Positions 1,650 through 6,839 of a DNA stretch of 59,171 nt are shown piece after piece. Source of the stretch: Bacillota bacterium (GTDB taxonomy: Bacteria; Bacillota; Clostridia; Peptostreptococcales; Anaerovoracaceae); NCBI GenBank assembly GCA_017442785.1, contig JAFRZB010000025.1, positions 1 through 59,171 on the forward strand, read 5' to 3'. Under the pieces are notes generated by a model that worked only from the letters and a program-made list of their open reading frames with translations, made no database searches and was not told the DNA's origin. A program made the position numbers and the translations under genes. Positions within the stretch are counted from its first letter, which is position 1. Each line of letters begins with the position of its first letter.

Positions 1650-1726
1650 CGGGGTGTAGCGCAGCTTGGTAGCGCATCTGCTTTGGGAGCAGAGGGCCGC
1701 ACGTTCGAATCGTGTCACCCCGACCA
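1650..1726 (+). tRNA. tRNA-Pro(TGG)
   Basis: The acceptor CGGGGTG pairs with CACCCCG, followed by A and CCA. The anticodon stem TCTGC/GCAGA encloses loop TTTGGGA, giving TGG. It is the first member of the second tRNA cluster. Confidence 0.97.
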
Positions 1727-1744
1727 ACAGAATACCTTTAGTGG

Positions 1745-1821
1745 GGGCCCTTAGCTCAGTTGGTCAGAGCGTCCGGCTCATAACCGGCAGGTCCCGGGTT
1801 CAAGTCCCTGAGGGCCCACCA
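1745..1821 (+). tRNA. tRNA with CAT anticodon (elongator Met or Ile2)
   Basis: The acceptor GGGCCCT pairs with AGGGCCC, followed by A and CCA. The anticodon loop CTCATAA gives CAT. The outermost anticodon-stem pair is a T-C mismatch. CAT could be elongator Met or lysidine-modified Ile2, and I cannot decide from identity elements alone. It is not the initiator type, because the three G-C pairs at the base of the anticodon stem are missing. Confidence 0.93.
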
Positions 1822-1824
1822 TTT

Positions 1825-1900
1825 GCCCAGTTAGCTCAGTCGGTAGAGCAGTAGACTGAAAATTTACGTGTCCTTGGTTCAATTCCGAGACTGGGCACCA
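1825..1900 (+). tRNA. tRNA-Phe(GAA)
   Basis: The acceptor GCCCAGT pairs with ACTGGGC, followed by A and CCA. The anticodon stem GTAGA/TTTAC (one G-U) encloses CTGAAAA, giving GAA. It lies 3 nt after the CAT tRNA and is followed at once by a terminator. Confidence 0.97.
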
Positions 1901-2018: not shown

Positions 2019-3935
2019 ATGCTTAAATACCCGTATCTGTTTTCCCCGGTAAAGGTGGGGAACGTGCTGTTCAGAAACAGGATATTCGAGACTCCGATGA
2101 GCGGTTTTTTCATCCGCAGCGACCATACTGCAGGTGAGAATGCCGCAGAATTCTATGCAAGAAGAGCAAGAGGCGGCGCTGCATGCGTATGCGTCGGGGA
2201 ATGCCATGTGGACATCCCCAGAGGAACAAGGGGCGGCGTCCATATGGACATGTTCGACCAGGCTACCCTCATAGACCTTGCAAACATGGCGGATATGATC
2301 AGGAGGCACGGAGCGGCAGCTTCAGTAGAGCTGGTCCATTACGGGCGCTATGCCACTTCGGGGCTGGGTCCGTCGGACGGCATTGCGAGCGGAAGGCAGA
2401 TAAGAGCATATACCCCGCAGGAGATAGAAGAGATACTTGACGCCTTTGCCAGAGCTGCGCTCAACGCCAAGTCCAAGGGCTTCGACATGGTCACGATACA
2501 CGGCGCCCACGGCTGGCTGCCGCAGCAGTTCTTCAGCGAATACACCAACACACGCACGGATGAATGGGGCGGCAGCGCTGCTAAACGCGCCAGATTTGCA
2601 GTAGAGATCTGCGACAGGATACACGCTCTTTGCGGCCGCAATTTCCCTGTCGAGTTCAGGATCAGCGGCACCGAGCTCAGCCAGGGCTACGGAATGGAGG
2701 GCGGCATCGAATATGCCAAGGCTCTGGACGGGCACGCGGACATAATTCACGTATCTGCAGGCGTTCACGGAGATCTGTCCAATGACGAGTGGCTTCTCGG
2801 ATCTCCCGGGATCTTCGATGAGGACGGTCCTCTGCTGAAATATGCCGCTGCCATAAAAAAGGAGATGAAGCACTCGCTGGTGGGCACCGTAGGCGGGGTG
2901 GCCGATCCGGCGCTTATGGAAGAATATATAGCCTCCGGCAAGGTGGACATCATCAACTGCGGCAGGGCTCTGATGTGCGATCCCGACCTTCCGAACAAGG
3001 CAAGAGAGGGAAGAGACGAGGATATCCGCATGTGCATGAGATGCATGGGATGCTGGTCCAACCTCATGACGATGAATAAGATAGTCTGTGCCATCAATCC
3101 AGAGACAGGGCGGGAGGCGGAATTCTCCGGTCCCATGGAGGCGAAGATAAAGAAGAACGTGGCGGTGGTTGGAGGAGGTATAGCCGGCATCCAGGCCGCG
3201 CTGACGGCTGCACAGTGCGGCCACAGCGTAACGCTGTACGAGAAGAACGCTTTCCTCGGCGGCAACATACACTGCGAGGAGAACGTGCCCTTCAAGAAGC
3301 GCTTCAGAAGGTATCTGGATCTTCAGATACGAAGTCTGGAGAAGGCAGGTGTTAAAGTGCTTCTCGGAACGGAAGCCGATCCGGAGCTTTTCAAAGAGAC
3401 GAAGCCGGATGTTATCCTTGCCTGTGTCGGTACCAGGCCTCTGATACCCCCGATCCCCGGCATAGACGGCAGGAACGTGGTAACAGGCCAGTACGCCTTT
3501 GGGCATCCGGACAAGCTCGGAAGGAAGGCGGCCATAATAGGCGGCGGCCTGGTAGGCTGCGAGCTGTCCATCTATCTGGGCATGCTGGGCATTAAGACCG
3601 AAGTGATAGAGATGGGCGGCAAGATCAACGCCGCAGGGATGATGTTCCAGGGCAAGATAGTAAGCCGCGAGCTGAGGGCCAGGAACATGGAAGTGAGATT
3701 CAATTCCGTCGCAAAGAAGATAACAGAAGAAGGACTGTACTACGAAAGCGGCGGAGAGGAGAAGTTCATAGAGGCGGATACCGTCATCGTTGCGGCCGGA
3801 CAAAGACCGCTGACGGACGCGGCTCTTGCGTTCGCGGACTGCGCGCCGCAGTTCCACATGATAGGGGACTGCGCCGGCGGAGGCAACATAATGACAGCCG
3901 TAAAGAACGCATATACCATAGCAAGAGATCTGTAG
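2019..3935 (+). CDS. NADH:flavin oxidoreductase, old yellow enzyme/2,4-dienoyl-CoA reductase family
   Basis: A 638-aa cytosolic flavo-iron-sulfur enzyme that would pass electrons from NAD(P)H via FAD and a 4Fe-4S cluster to FMN to reduce an activated C=C bond. The family includes FadH and the bile-acid enzymes BaiCD and BaiH. Residues 1-330 form the FMN TIM barrel with the HGAHG...R-T-D-E-W-G-G signature. Cysteines 339, 342, 345 and 357 form the cluster box C-x2-C-x2-C-x11-C, one residue tighter than the C-x2-C-x3-C I remember for FadH. A VVGGGIAG FAD motif starts near 388 and an IIGGGLVG dinucleotide motif near 507. The C-terminus has the usual G-D-C-A-G-G-G FAD box. AGGAGA precedes the ATG. 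The TIR gene starts 30 bp downstream with no terminator between, so co-transcription is likely. The substrate cannot be read from sequence. Confidence 0.93.
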   Translation: MLKYPYLFSPVKVGNVLFRNRIFETPMSGFFIRSDHTAGENAAEFYARRARGGAACVCVGECHVDIPRGTRGGVHMDMFDQATLIDLANMADMIRRHGAAASVELVHYGRYATSGLGPSDGIASGRQIRAYTPQEIEEILDAFARAALNAKSKGFDMVTIHGAHGWLPQQFFSEYTNTRTDEWGGSAAKRARFAVEICDRIHALCGRNFPVEFRISGTELSQGYGMEGGIEYAKALDGHADIIHVSAGVHGDLSNDEWLLGSPGIFDEDGPLLKYAAAIKKEMKHSLVGTVGGVADPALMEEYIASGKVDIINCGRALMCDPDLPNKAREGRDEDIRMCMRCMGCWSNLMTMNKIVCAINPETGREAEFSGPMEAKIKKNVAVVGGGIAGIQAALTAAQCGHSVTLYEKNAFLGGNIHCEENVPFKKRFRRYLDLQIRSLEKAGVKVLLGTEADPELFKETKPDVILACVGTRPLIPPIPGIDGRNVVTGQYAFGHPDKLGRKAAIIGGGLVGCELSIYLGMLGIKTEVIEMGGKINAAGMMFQGKIVSRELRARNMEVRFNSVAKKITEEGLYYESGGEEKFIEADTVIVAAGQRPLTDAALAFADCAPQFHMIGDCAGGGNIMTAVKNAYTIARDL

Positions 3936-3965
3936 GACCGGGCTTTAAGTCCGGAGAGATAAATC

Positions 3966-6332
3966 ATGGAACAGAAAAAAGAACATCTTGTTTTTATTTC
4001 TTATTCAACAAAGGATACGCCTGTAGCGCAGCTGATCTGCCATAGGCTGGAGGAGGCCGGGATACGCTGCTGGATAGCTCCGCGCGACATAAATGAGGTG
4101 AGCTGGCCGGAAGCCATCATGGACACCCTTGCCAGAGCGGACATATTCCTTATTATCGTCGGCGAGCACTCCATACAGTCGCCGCAGTGCAGGAACGAGC
4201 TCAACGAAGCGACAAATACCTGTTCTTACATAATCCCGTTCAAGCTGGACAGCGCGGAGCTCTCCAAGTTCATGAGGTATCATCTCGGTCCGTTCCACTG
4301 GCTGGATGCTTCTACACCGCCTCTTGAGGCCAGGGTCTCCGAGCTAATACAGAGGATAAGGAACATAGACAGCGATGAAGCCCCGAGGAACAGCCGCAGG
4401 TATGAATTAAAAGAGCGCATGGTCTGGCCTAGGCCGGTCTTCCTCGGAAGAGATGCTGAGCTTGCGGAGATAGCAAAGAGGCTTCCGGAGGAAAAGGTCC
4501 TGTTCCTTCAGGGAATGGGCGGAATGGGCAAGTCCGAGATAGCCAAGTCCTACGCCAAGGAGCATCGCGGCAGCTACGATACCGTGGTATTTTTGGGTTA
4601 CGAGGGAAGCATCCTGGACCTTATCACGAGCGATGCCGTAATGATAGAGAACCTTCCGCCGCAGGATGCGGAGAGCGAGAGCCAGGAGCAGTATTTCCGC
4701 AGGAAGATGGATGTACTGAGGAAGATAACGTCCGAGAGGACGCTCTTCATCCTGGATAATTATGATGTTGATGAGGATCCGTATTTTGAAGAGCTCGCCA
4801 ATCTGCCTTGCCATCTTTTGGTTACTACAAGGAACGATCACTGGGAACACAGTACCCTTAAGATAGGTCCTATCGCGGACTTCGACGAGGTCCGCAGGCT
4901 TTTTGCCTCTGCGTACGGCAAGCCGATAAAACCGGAAGATCAGCCTGTAGTAGACGAGATGATACGTCTGGTGGGCTGCCATACCATAACCGTAGAACTT
5001 ATCGCGAGGCAGATGCGCGTCAGCTTCCGCAGGCCCAAGGAGATGCTGGAGCTCCTTAAGAAGAGCGGTGTGAATACCAGGCTCAGGGAGGACGTGCGCA
5101 GGGACGGCGCGGCAGGCTCCGGATCCGCATTCGATAACATCTCCAGACTGTTCGAGCTCTCCGGCCTTTCCCCCGAGTGCGAAAAGCTTCTCCTGTACAT
5201 GACGATGGTGCCTTATACGGGTATAGACATCAGGCTTTTCGGCGACATCTGCGGCCTGGATTCCTTCGACGCGGTCAACGAGCTGAAGGCCCACAGCTGG
5301 CTGTTTTTTGATGAAGACACCGACATACTCAGCATGCATCCTGTAGTGGCGGACGTGGTAAGGGAGAAGCTGCATCCCACGGTGGAGTCCTGCAGGGAGT
5401 ACATAGCGGGGCTCTGGAGGGAAGTAGGCACGCTCTGGTTCTGCGACAAGGAAGAGCGGACACGTCTGTGGCCTTATTACGCCTGCATACTTAATCATTA
5501 TTTCGATCCGATCCCGGAGCTTTGGGAGGAGTTCAGCTATCTTGAGACCAACGCGTGGATATGCGGTCATTACCGGCTGTCCATAGAGACAGGACACAGG
5601 TTCCTGGATTATACCAGGAAGACCTTCCCGGATGATCTCAGGAAGATAGGCATAGCGGCTACCAACCTCGGAGGATGCTACCACAACAGCGGGGACGACT
5701 TCAGCGCCGCGCCGTATTACGAGGAGGGCCTTGAATGTCAGAAAAAGGCCATACGGGAAGACTCTCCCGCGGAGGACTGGTTCCAGCTGGCTAACGCATA
5801 TCAGAAGGTCGGGCGCTGTGCGTACCTGTCCGGACAGTTCGAAAAGTCCGGGAAGTGCTTTGAGGAGTCCATACGCATCTGCCTTGAGAAGGACAGGAAG
5901 CGCGGATACATGGGGAACGCTCTCCTTGAGACGGGCGAGATGTATCAGGCCATGGGAGATTACGAGAAGGGCCTGGAATACGCGGAGAAGAGCCTGGCGT
6001 TCTATACTGAGATGACAGGCGGGGACAACGCCAACAGCGGCTGCTCGCTCAGGGACATAGGGAAATGCCGCATGTTCCTCGGGGACTACGAAGGTGCAAA
6101 AGAAGCTCTCGAACGTGCCGTGGAGCTTGACACTCGTTTCAACGGAACAGGCAACCGTCAGACCTTCAGGTCCAAGGAGGCTCTGGGAGACCTTGCTGCG
6201 GCGCAGGGCCGAAGGGATGAGGCTTTGGCGATATACGAGGAGATAGAGGTGGAGATGGCGCGCTGCTTCGGCGAAAAAAATCCGGATCTGCTTGCGATCC
6301 GGAAAAAGATAAGCGATATTACAGAAGCTTAA
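3966..6332 (+). CDS. TIR/NB-ARC-like STAND ATPase/TPR protein (NLR-like)
   Basis: A 788-aa multidomain protein. Residues 7-135 form a TIR domain: VFISYSTKD, W-I-A-P-R-D, and S-P-Q-C-R-N-E-L, where Glu78 sits at the position of the NADase catalytic glutamate. Residues about 155-470 form a STAND ATPase: G-R-D-A-E-L before the P-loop GMGGMGKS (183-190), Walker B TLFILDNYD (259-267), T-T-R-N (287-290), a winged-helix region, and M-H-P (457-459) at the place of the plant MHD motif. Residues about 550-780 hold TPR-like helical repeats, which would be the sensing region. There is no membrane segment. In this family ligand binding on the repeats is thought to drive oligomerisation and TIR-mediated NAD breakdown, often as anti-phage defence. 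That role is inference here, and signalling or regulation is possible. GGAGAG precedes the ATG. The 3' end faces the cyclophilin gene 3 bp away. Confidence 0.9.
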   Translation: MEQKKEHLVFISYSTKDTPVAQLICHRLEEAGIRCWIAPRDINEVSWPEAIMDTLARADIFLIIVGEHSIQSPQCRNELNEATNTCSYIIPFKLDSAELSKFMRYHLGPFHWLDASTPPLEARVSELIQRIRNIDSDEAPRNSRRYELKERMVWPRPVFLGRDAELAEIAKRLPEEKVLFLQGMGGMGKSEIAKSYAKEHRGSYDTVVFLGYEGSILDLITSDAVMIENLPPQDAESESQEQYFRRKMDVLRKITSERTLFILDNYDVDEDPYFEELANLPCHLLVTTRNDHWEHSTLKIGPIADFDEVRRLFASAYGKPIKPEDQPVVDEMIRLVGCHTITVELIARQMRVSFRRPKEMLELLKKSGVNTRLREDVRRDGAAGSGSAFDNISRLFELSGLSPECEKLLLYMTMVPYTGIDIRLFGDICGLDSFDAVNELKAHSWLFFDEDTDILSMHPVVADVVREKLHPTVESCREYIAGLWREVGTLWFCDKEERTRLWPYYACILNHYFDPIPELWEEFSYLETNAWICGHYRLSIETGHRFLDYTRKTFPDDLRKIGIAATNLGGCYHNSGDDFSAAPYYEEGLECQKKAIREDSPAEDWFQLANAYQKVGRCAYLSGQFEKSGKCFEESIRICLEKDRKRGYMGNALLETGEMYQAMGDYEKGLEYAEKSLAFYTEMTGGDNANSGCSLRDIGKCRMFLGDYEGAKEALERAVELDTRFNGTGNRQTFRSKEALGDLAAAQGRRDEALAIYEEIEVEMARCFGEKNPDLLAIRKKISDITEA

Positions 6333-6335
6333 GGT

Positions 6336-6839
6336 CTATTCCTCTGCGAGCTTTATCGTCTCTATCACGACGTTCTTTACCGGCACGTCCTGCATGTAGA
6401 AGCCTCTGGTGCCTGTGCGGGTAGCTGCAATGTCGTCAAGGACATCGAAGCCGTCGGTGAGCTTTCCGAAGGCCGCGTACTGCCTGTCGAGGTGAGGGGC
6501 GTCCCTGTGCATTACGAAGAACTGCGAGGACGCGGAATCAGGCACGTTTGTCCTTGCCATGGAGAGGACGCCTCTTGTGTGCTTAAGGTCGTTCTTTACT
6601 CCGTTTGCTTCGAACTCACCCTTTATGGAGTCCGCGTGCTTCTGGCGGAAGTCCTCGGTAAAGCCGCCGCCCTGGATCATGAATCCGGGTATGACTCTGT
6701 GGAAGATGAGCCCGTCGAAGAACTTTTCTTCTATGAGCTTGAGGAAGTTGGCCACGGTGATGGGCGCCGTTTCCGGGTAGAGCTCGGCCTTCATGGTGCC
6801 GTAGTCCTTTACTATAATCTCGATCTTAGGATTATCCAT
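6336..6839 (-). CDS. ppiB: Cyclophilin-type peptidyl-prolyl isomerase
   Basis: A 167-aa cytosolic PPIase without signal peptide that catalyses cis-trans isomerisation of proline bonds during folding. Visible cyclophilin hallmarks are F-H-R-V-I-P-G-F-M-I-Q-G-G (active-site Arg and Gln), S-M-A-R-T...S-S-Q-F-F-V-M (substrate pocket) and A-F-G-K-L. Near its end W is absent from the usual cyclosporin-binding position (H-L-D-R-Q-Y-A-A-F-G), which is common in bacteria. The gene converges with the TIR gene, and the two stops are separated by only 3 bp without an obvious terminator. An AGGAGAT-like site precedes the start. Confidence 0.94.
   Translation of the reverse strand: MDNPKIEIIVKDYGTMKAELYPETAPITVANFLKLIEEKFFDGLIFHRVIPGFMIQGGGFTEDFRQKHADSIKGEFEANGVKNDLKHTRGVLSMARTNVPDSASSQFFVMHRDAPHLDRQYAAFGKLTDGFDVLDDIAATRTGTRGFYMQDVPVKNVVIETIKLAEE

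Follow-up and report, generated by a model that had tools for sequence, protein, structure and literature searches.

The 59,171-nucleotide stretch of contig JAFRZB010000025.1 from a Bacillota bacterium of the family Anaerovoracaceae (assembly GCA_017442785.1; hereafter the window) carries a gene for a protein, P0001, in which a Toll/interleukin-1 receptor (TIR) domain is joined to an NB-ARC-like ATPase of the signal transduction ATPases with numerous domains (STAND) class and to a tail of tetratricopeptide repeats (TPRs). From its sequence, we read P0001 as a stand-alone, single-protein sensor that resembles nucleotide-binding leucine-rich repeat receptors (NLRs), has a TIR NADase as its output and is probably directed against phage, and we give this reading a probability of roughly two in three. 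It is favored by the intact domains and motifs, the collinearity with plant ROQ1 and RPP1, the match to Cat1, purifying selection, a patchy spread, transfer between hosts and a congener whose slot lacks the gene, as well as by the variable N-termini on related STAND cores and by further TIR genes near homologues in three genomes. A role of P0001 in defence is inferred. ATP-driven oligomerization, NADase activity and a phage trigger would all be expected from the families to which its domains belong. In the proposed mechanism, the TPR tail would bind a foreign or stress-linked protein, and this would release the STAND ATPase, which would exchange ADP for ATP and oligomerize. The clustered TIR domains would then form active sites around Glu78 and cleave NAD+ or make a cyclic signal, and the loss of NAD+, or the signal, would stop growth or kill the cell, most likely aborting a phage infection.

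The first-pass annotation had described a complete NLR-like protein with TIR, NB-ARC-like STAND and TPR parts, and this was borne out by an uninterrupted open reading frame (ORF) and three Pfam domains above their curated cut-offs, namely TIR_2, NB-ARC (residues 166-291, 4.7e-8) and TPR_12 (1.2e-23), with other TPR models spanning residues ~600-760. NACHT was not among the 25 Pfam families listed for P0001. The motifs read S72-x2-C75-x2-E78-L79 in the TIR domain and G183-M-G-G-M-G-K189-S, F-I-L-D264-N265, T287-T-R-N and M457-H-P459 in the ATPase. In an alignment of 10 full-length proteins with the same layout, S72, E78, G183, G185, G186, G188, K189, D264, N265, T287-R289, H458 and P459 were invariant, so these motifs go beyond chance, and the P-loop, Walker B and T-T-R-N are indeed intact, as had been claimed. 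A wider alignment of 41 rows contained 25 TIR rows covering E78 and 27 STAND rows. Glu78 was E in 25/25 TIR rows, and Ser72 and Trp36 were also invariant there. The STAND rows kept G183, G186, G188, K189, D264 and N265 in 27/27 and T287 in 25/27, with H458 in 26/26 and P459 in 21/26, and the position of G185 was G in 18/27 and A in 9/27. The S-x2-C-x2-E-L motif of the first-pass annotation was thus present with a fully conserved Glu, but C75 was C in only 3/25 aligned TIRs; as C75 is no family feature, little can be read into the plant-like spacing around it. The M-H-P at the MHD position was likewise present, but its M was replaced by L or V in many relatives in both alignments.

With a P-loop NTPase, Walker B, TTR and an MHD-position motif reading MHP, P0001 has the features of an NLR-like STAND protein of the NB-ARC class, and its layout is also NLR-like, with TIR_2 as an N-terminal effector and C-terminal TPRs as the likely sensor. 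The Glu that is conserved across the aligned TIRs is the feature expected of a TIR NADase, and the conserved residues by themselves point to a putative NADase activity. The layout of plant TIR-NLRs, which had also been proposed, held for the TIR and NB-ARC parts but not for the tail. Since the tail is TPR and not leucine-rich repeat (LRR), the plant counterpart by layout is the TIR-NBARC-TPR protein (TNP) and not the classical TIR-NB-LRR receptor.

The fold family was judged from sequence profiles against solved structures. A profile of TIR plus NB-ARC matched ROQ1 as a single collinear run (profile positions 4-342, E 3e-17) and also matched ADR2 (4e-10) and RPP1 (7crb, 2e-7; the name for this entry is taken from PMC9153377). 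The TIR profile had its best solved match in Cat1 (1.4e-13), followed by TIR-STING, Toll-receptor and Toll-like receptor (TLR) TIRs and ROQ1. In the profile alignments, Glu78 was aligned with a Glu of Cat1 and a Glu of ROQ1, both of which we take to be catalytic. The best matches of the NB-ARC profile were PH0952, ROQ1, an NB-ARC domain-containing protein (9h2l) and APAF1. ROQ1 and RPP1 share TIR and NB-ARC with P0001 and have an LRR sensor where P0001 has TPRs. Cat1, a CRISPR-associated TIR protein, is an effector of its own that a CRISPR signal activates, and it is not known to have a STAND domain. The full-length family profile matched residues 3-240 of 9m0n/9umd (E 2.9e-9), a solved 'tetratricopeptide repeat protein' of 824 residues that shares the run from TIR into ATPase with the P0001 family, but whose remainder was unmatched by this profile and which was absent from the list of the NB-ARC profile. 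A look-up of PDB code 9m0n found no paper bearing the code in the literature searched. In the Avs/AVAST and NACHT bacterial NLRs, the STAND ATPase has an effector on its N-terminal side and a sensor on its C-terminal side; Avs4 matched P0001 only over a short P-loop stretch. Searches against PADLOC gave seven partial matches at E<=1, the best to SAVED_TIR (residues 9-83, 2.7e-6), and no full-length match of P0001 to any system protein. The best partial NCBIfam match, the FxSxx-COOH TPR protein NF040586, reached 122.9 of 300 bits and was rejected as far below the cut-off.

The general design of P0001 is not new to bacteria: PMC9806590 mentions bacterial TIR-NB-TPR sequences, and an architecture class of TIR-NB-ARC-TPR proteins is described in PMC9153377. 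Plant TNP, formerly XTNX, is a TIR-NBARC-TPR protein with Walker A and B, TTR and an MHD motif, and maize TNP kills tobacco leaf cells via its TIR catalytic site and its P-loop (PMC9806590). TNP, which is known here by description, has the same domain order as P0001, but the bacterial likeness to it rests on the nucleotide-binding domain and not on TIR or TPR (PMC9806590), and its MHD motif corresponds to H-P in most rows of the P0001 alignment. A TIR-NLR system of E. coli P4-like satellites (Rousset 2022) protects E. coli from phages (PMC9122126). Compared by description, this system and P0001 both join a TIR to an NLR-like protein, but the former is listed as PF08937 (TIR) plus PF13245/PF13555 (ATPase) in PMC10952713, whereas P0001 is TIR_2/NB-ARC/TPR. 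More generally, TIR NADases need oligomerization and often act by abortive infection (PMC13174449). The description of P0001 as a little-described system was therefore only partly right, with bacterial TIR-NB-TPR proteins in print (PMC9806590) and a phage-protective TIR-NLR known (PMC9122126). The present analysis contributes the lineage, the slot together with a congener that lacks the gene there, and the finding that related cores bear different N-termini.

P0001 is accessory and not a housekeeping protein. Its own genome held one match, and the first-pass annotation's case for refutation, a housekeeping gene present in every strain, was not what we found: none of 10 other same-genus genomes, most of them incomplete (61-98% complete, two at >=90%), matched at 1e-10, and a housekeeping role was rejected. 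Among 99 genomes, two matched at 1e-10, these being the genome itself and one with a distant NB-ARC match. Of 391 genomes sampled from the class, with two candidates scored per genome, 32 (own included) matched at 1e-10, mostly to one domain; besides the window, TIR and NB-ARC occurred together in G289 (two copies), G233, G326 and G130 (split between contigs). The closest relatives came from elsewhere. A Blautia metagenome-assembled genome (MAG) from sheep abomasum carried a homologue that was 68% identical over 783 residues, and in its family, where 14/299 genomes matched at 1e-40, a second close homologue was found in G630 (67%), the sole genome of its genus, together with full-length homologues at 34-36% in G631 and G574. 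Within the genus of the Blautia MAG, 4/64 genomes matched at 1e-40, and the match included the TIR only in the MAG itself. The core protein Ffh was less conserved relative to the window, at 57% in G630 and 54% in the Blautia MAG, than the P0001 homologues at 67% and 68%. Together with the patchy distribution, these sequence comparisons are strong evidence that the gene was horizontally transferred, and it was probably acquired from another bacterium. GC content of gene and host stretch was alike in the three close homologues (0.546/0.538 in the window, 0.488/0.483 and 0.591/0.607), and GC at third codon positions (GC3) of the P0001 gene likewise resembled the host. The proportions of nonsynonymous and synonymous differences among the three were 0.16-0.22 (pN) and 0.73-0.85 (pS), with synonymous sites at or near saturation. 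The host-like GC and the synonymous bias indicate that the gene has adapted to its host and that purifying selection acts on it. The linker between TIR and NB-ARC was the least conserved part, at 45-55% identity.

Cargo of a prophage or plasmid was also considered and rejected, because the scan of 10 window neighbours, three of them without any match, named neither an integrase nor a phage family. In a phage collection, three records with no stated host matched P0001, and in a plasmid collection 33 did, every match staying below 60% identity and below 80% coverage of the protein; none was enterobacterial by name among the 20 listed of the 33 plasmid matches. Among viral_contigs, 15 loci matched, the best at 21-27% identity, and the best match in PHROGs had an E of 0.0044. 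One IMG/VR viral contig (L101, 8001-11417) encoded a protein that begins like a TIR and contains numerous WD40 repeats, flanked by ORFs that by eye resemble tape-measure and tail genes.

The gene lies in a slot between a tRNA-Pro/Met/Phe cluster and a convergent cyclophilin gene (Table 1), which lie beside each other in the window and in six same-genus relatives. The comparison covered these 6/10 congeners; three others had no cyclophilin match, and G007, with a 52% cyclophilin match containing a stop, was left out. From tRNA-Phe to cyclophilin, the slot measured ~60-120 bp without a gene in G002, G005 and G006, where the only frames overlapped the tRNAs or the cyclophilin gene. In G009 and G010 it measured ~440-550 bp with one 66-residue ORF, that of G010 being a Cro/C1-type helix-turn-helix (HTH) protein, and we read this small HTH ORF as another slot occupant. 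In G004 the slot held only a flavin oxidoreductase, 91% identical to that of the window, where oxidoreductase and TIR-NLR stand together; ~65 bp with a strong terminator hairpin separated the oxidoreductase stop from the cyclophilin stop in G004. The oxidoreductase, which resembles the BaiCD, bilirubin-reductase and old yellow enzyme (OYE) models, each below the NCBIfam cut-off, is itself patchy in the genus (2/11 genomes at 1e-150). A gain of the TIR-NLR by the window lineage is the simpler reading of this one slot, and loss by G004 is the alternative. Site-specific insertion at tRNA-Phe with a duplicated end was rejected, as no repeat of >=18 bases was found, although shorter ones would escape.

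The hairpin in the gap upstream of the TIR-NLR gene was unremarkable (-10.3 kcal/mol, z -1.39), and the gene may be expressed by read-through from the oxidoreductase transcript or from a transcript of its own. A decaying or unexpressed passenger carried by chance would agree with the fact that upstream there is only a weak promoter-like site (9/12), located within the oxidoreductase gene, which ends 30 bp short of the TIR-NLR start codon. We consider this very improbable in view of the full length, the intact motifs, the host-like GC and GC3 and the strong purifying selection between homologues. At the other end, the last TIR-NLR codons (NPDLLAIR) form a terminator-like hairpin on the opposite strand (-15.2 kcal/mol, z -1.88) that is placed to end the cyclophilin transcript. 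It matched the terminator stem of a congener's slot at 17/21 bases, a weak match (E ~0.1). Inspected by eye, both close homologues have similar residues encoded but lack the hairpin.

Table 1. Features of the TIR-NLR gene and its slot in the window.
Feature	Coordinates	Strand	Remarks
tRNA-Pro, tRNA-Met, tRNA-Phe cluster	1650..1900	+	left edge of slot
BaiCD/OYE-type flavin oxidoreductase, other slot occupant	2019..3935	+	NCBIfam matches below cut-off
Weak promoter-like site inside oxidoreductase gene end	3891..3919	+	9/12 consensus bases; consensus scan only
30-bp gap after oxidoreductase stop: small hairpin and Shine-Dalgarno-like GGAGAG	3936..3965	+	sequence
TIR-NB-ARC-TPR protein gene (P0001)	3966..6332	+	788 aa, ATG start, without internal stop
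TIR_2 domain, residues 9-117	3990..4316	+	Pfam 3.5e-21, above curated cut-off
Glu78, putative catalytic glutamate	4197..4199	+	E in 25/25 aligned TIRs
NB-ARC-like STAND ATPase and winged-helix end, residues ~158-480	4437..5405	+	boundaries approximate
P-loop GMGGMGKS, residues 183-190	4512..4535	+	alignment of STAND rows
Walker B LFILDN, residues 260-265	4743..4760	+	D264, N265 in 27/27 rows
TTR motif, residues 287-289	4824..4832	+	invariant in 10 full-length proteins
His-Pro at MHD position, residues 458-459	5337..5342	+	alignment of STAND rows
TPR tail, residues ~561-786, presumed sensor	5646..6323	+	Pfam TPR_12; boundaries approximate
Terminator-like hairpin and T-run for convergent cyclophilin gene	6281..6303	-	inside 3' end of TIR-NLR coding sequence
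Cyclophilin-type peptidylprolyl isomerase, convergent, right slot edge	6336..6839	-	NCBIfam matches below cut-off

Twenty-four relatives with computed ORFs were matched through NB-ARC, and all but L002, L025, L063 and L082 were scanned with Pfam (1e-5). The N-termini of these 20 proteins were a protein kinase in eight and HTH_3 in two, with nothing named in 10. The protein kinase-STAND proteins were those of L017, L020, L055, L056, L057, L058, L059 and L083, several of them with named TPRs. A tree of the STAND core was built from 29 rows, leaving out the same four loci together with L024 and L080; 7/26 inner branches were open and three rows were long. On this tree, the TIR label requires at least two changes on well supported branches, and the HTH pair fell together with three TIR rows into one clade (97/97), within which the branching was unsettled. 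The different N-termini on related cores suggest that outputs vary as they do in NLRs.

The surroundings of the homologues gave mixed evidence on defence. Further Pfam TIR genes were found near homologues in G289, G130 and G326. In G289 and G130, a TIR-Sel1 gene directly adjoined the TIR-NB-ARC gene, and in G326 two further TIR genes lay within ~5 kb on either side of the homologue. At the level of single loci, a TIR-Sel1 gene stood beside TIR-NB-ARC genes in L075 (350-6909), which has two tandem TIR-NB-ARC-TPR genes, and in L080 (2758-5280), and in L077 (3778-18873) a TIR-NB-ARC-TPR gene was flanked on both sides by Pfam TIR genes, one of them TIR-MORN, within ~15 kb. TIR-Sel1 as a fixed partner of P0001 was rejected, as no such gene was seen to flank the window gene or either of its close homologues. 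Among 20 genes near eight homologue loci, four matched PADLOC at E<=1e-3, as single models and without an enrichment control: the TIR-Sel1 protein of G289 (ThsB model, 3.9e-8), a neighbour in G326 (DolB, 9.6e-10), the protein adjoining the Blautia gene (candidate PDC-M51A, 1.1e-34) and, weakly, a neighbour in G631 (1.8e-4).

Several observations weigh against a phage-defence NADase. The other 16/20 genes near homologues matched no PADLOC model at E<=1e-3, and the four that did may be generic. Around the window gene, no named defence family was found among the 10 flanking proteins scanned, and 5/10 exceeded the NCBIfam cut-off as core families (MnmL/YtqA, a phosphoribosyltransferase, YlxM, Ffh and S16), the others being two below cut-off (oxidoreductase and cyclophilin) and three without a match. 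The TPRs were not clearly the fastest-changing part: two of the three pairs had lower identity in the TPRs (62.8% and 65.8%) than in NB-ARC (68.4% and 70.6%), but in the third pair the values were 75.6% and 75.2%. The variety of N-termini among related cores also leaves room for a signalling role outside defence. Finally, the TIR profile matched MyD88 and TLR TIRs as well as solved TIR NADases, so the motif alone is no proof of catalysis.

The TIRs of TLRs and MyD88 act as adaptors, and the TIR of P0001 might similarly be a non-enzymatic docking or oligomerization domain that recruits another protein. We regard this as improbable, as all 25 TIR rows keep Glu78, Ser72 and Trp36 and no fixed partner gene was seen, the ORF lists of the window and the two close homologues showing by eye no neighbour in common. 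A less remote though still unlikely alternative is that P0001 is a STAND signalling regulator for a stimulus other than phage, such as stress, the envelope, metabolism or peptide control, with the TIR as a messenger-maker or adaptor instead of a killer. The kinase and HTH_3 N-termini in place of TIR, the clade that joins HTH with TIR rows and the partial match to an FxSxx-system protein all fit such a regulator, as does the lack of a visible defence island in the neighbour samples, which carried no enrichment control. On the other hand, the patchy presence with 0/10 congeners, together with transfer between distant hosts, suits defence better than core regulation, and Glu78 is invariant in 25/25 TIRs. 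A sensor with a putative TIR NADase, probably acting in defence, remains our preferred reading of P0001.

More tentatively, and we think with the odds against it, P0001 may represent an undescribed family of solitary NLRs with interchangeable effectors in Clostridia, in which one STAND-TPR chassis carries TIR, protein-kinase or DNA-binding N-termini. Such a gene would travel alone, with no integrase, settle in slots like that next to the tRNAs and borrow its promoter from a metabolic neighbour. If this were true, one kind of sensor would drive suicide, phosphorylation or transcription. P0001 itself is a full-length TIR-NLR of plant-like layout, and its two near homologues in distant hosts and the gene-free congener provide a natural comparison. 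Being an intact receptor encoded by one gene, it lends itself readily to studying whether bacterial TIR-NB-ARC-TPR proteins use their TPRs to sense those of phages, and whether related cores with kinase or HTH outputs have that purpose too.

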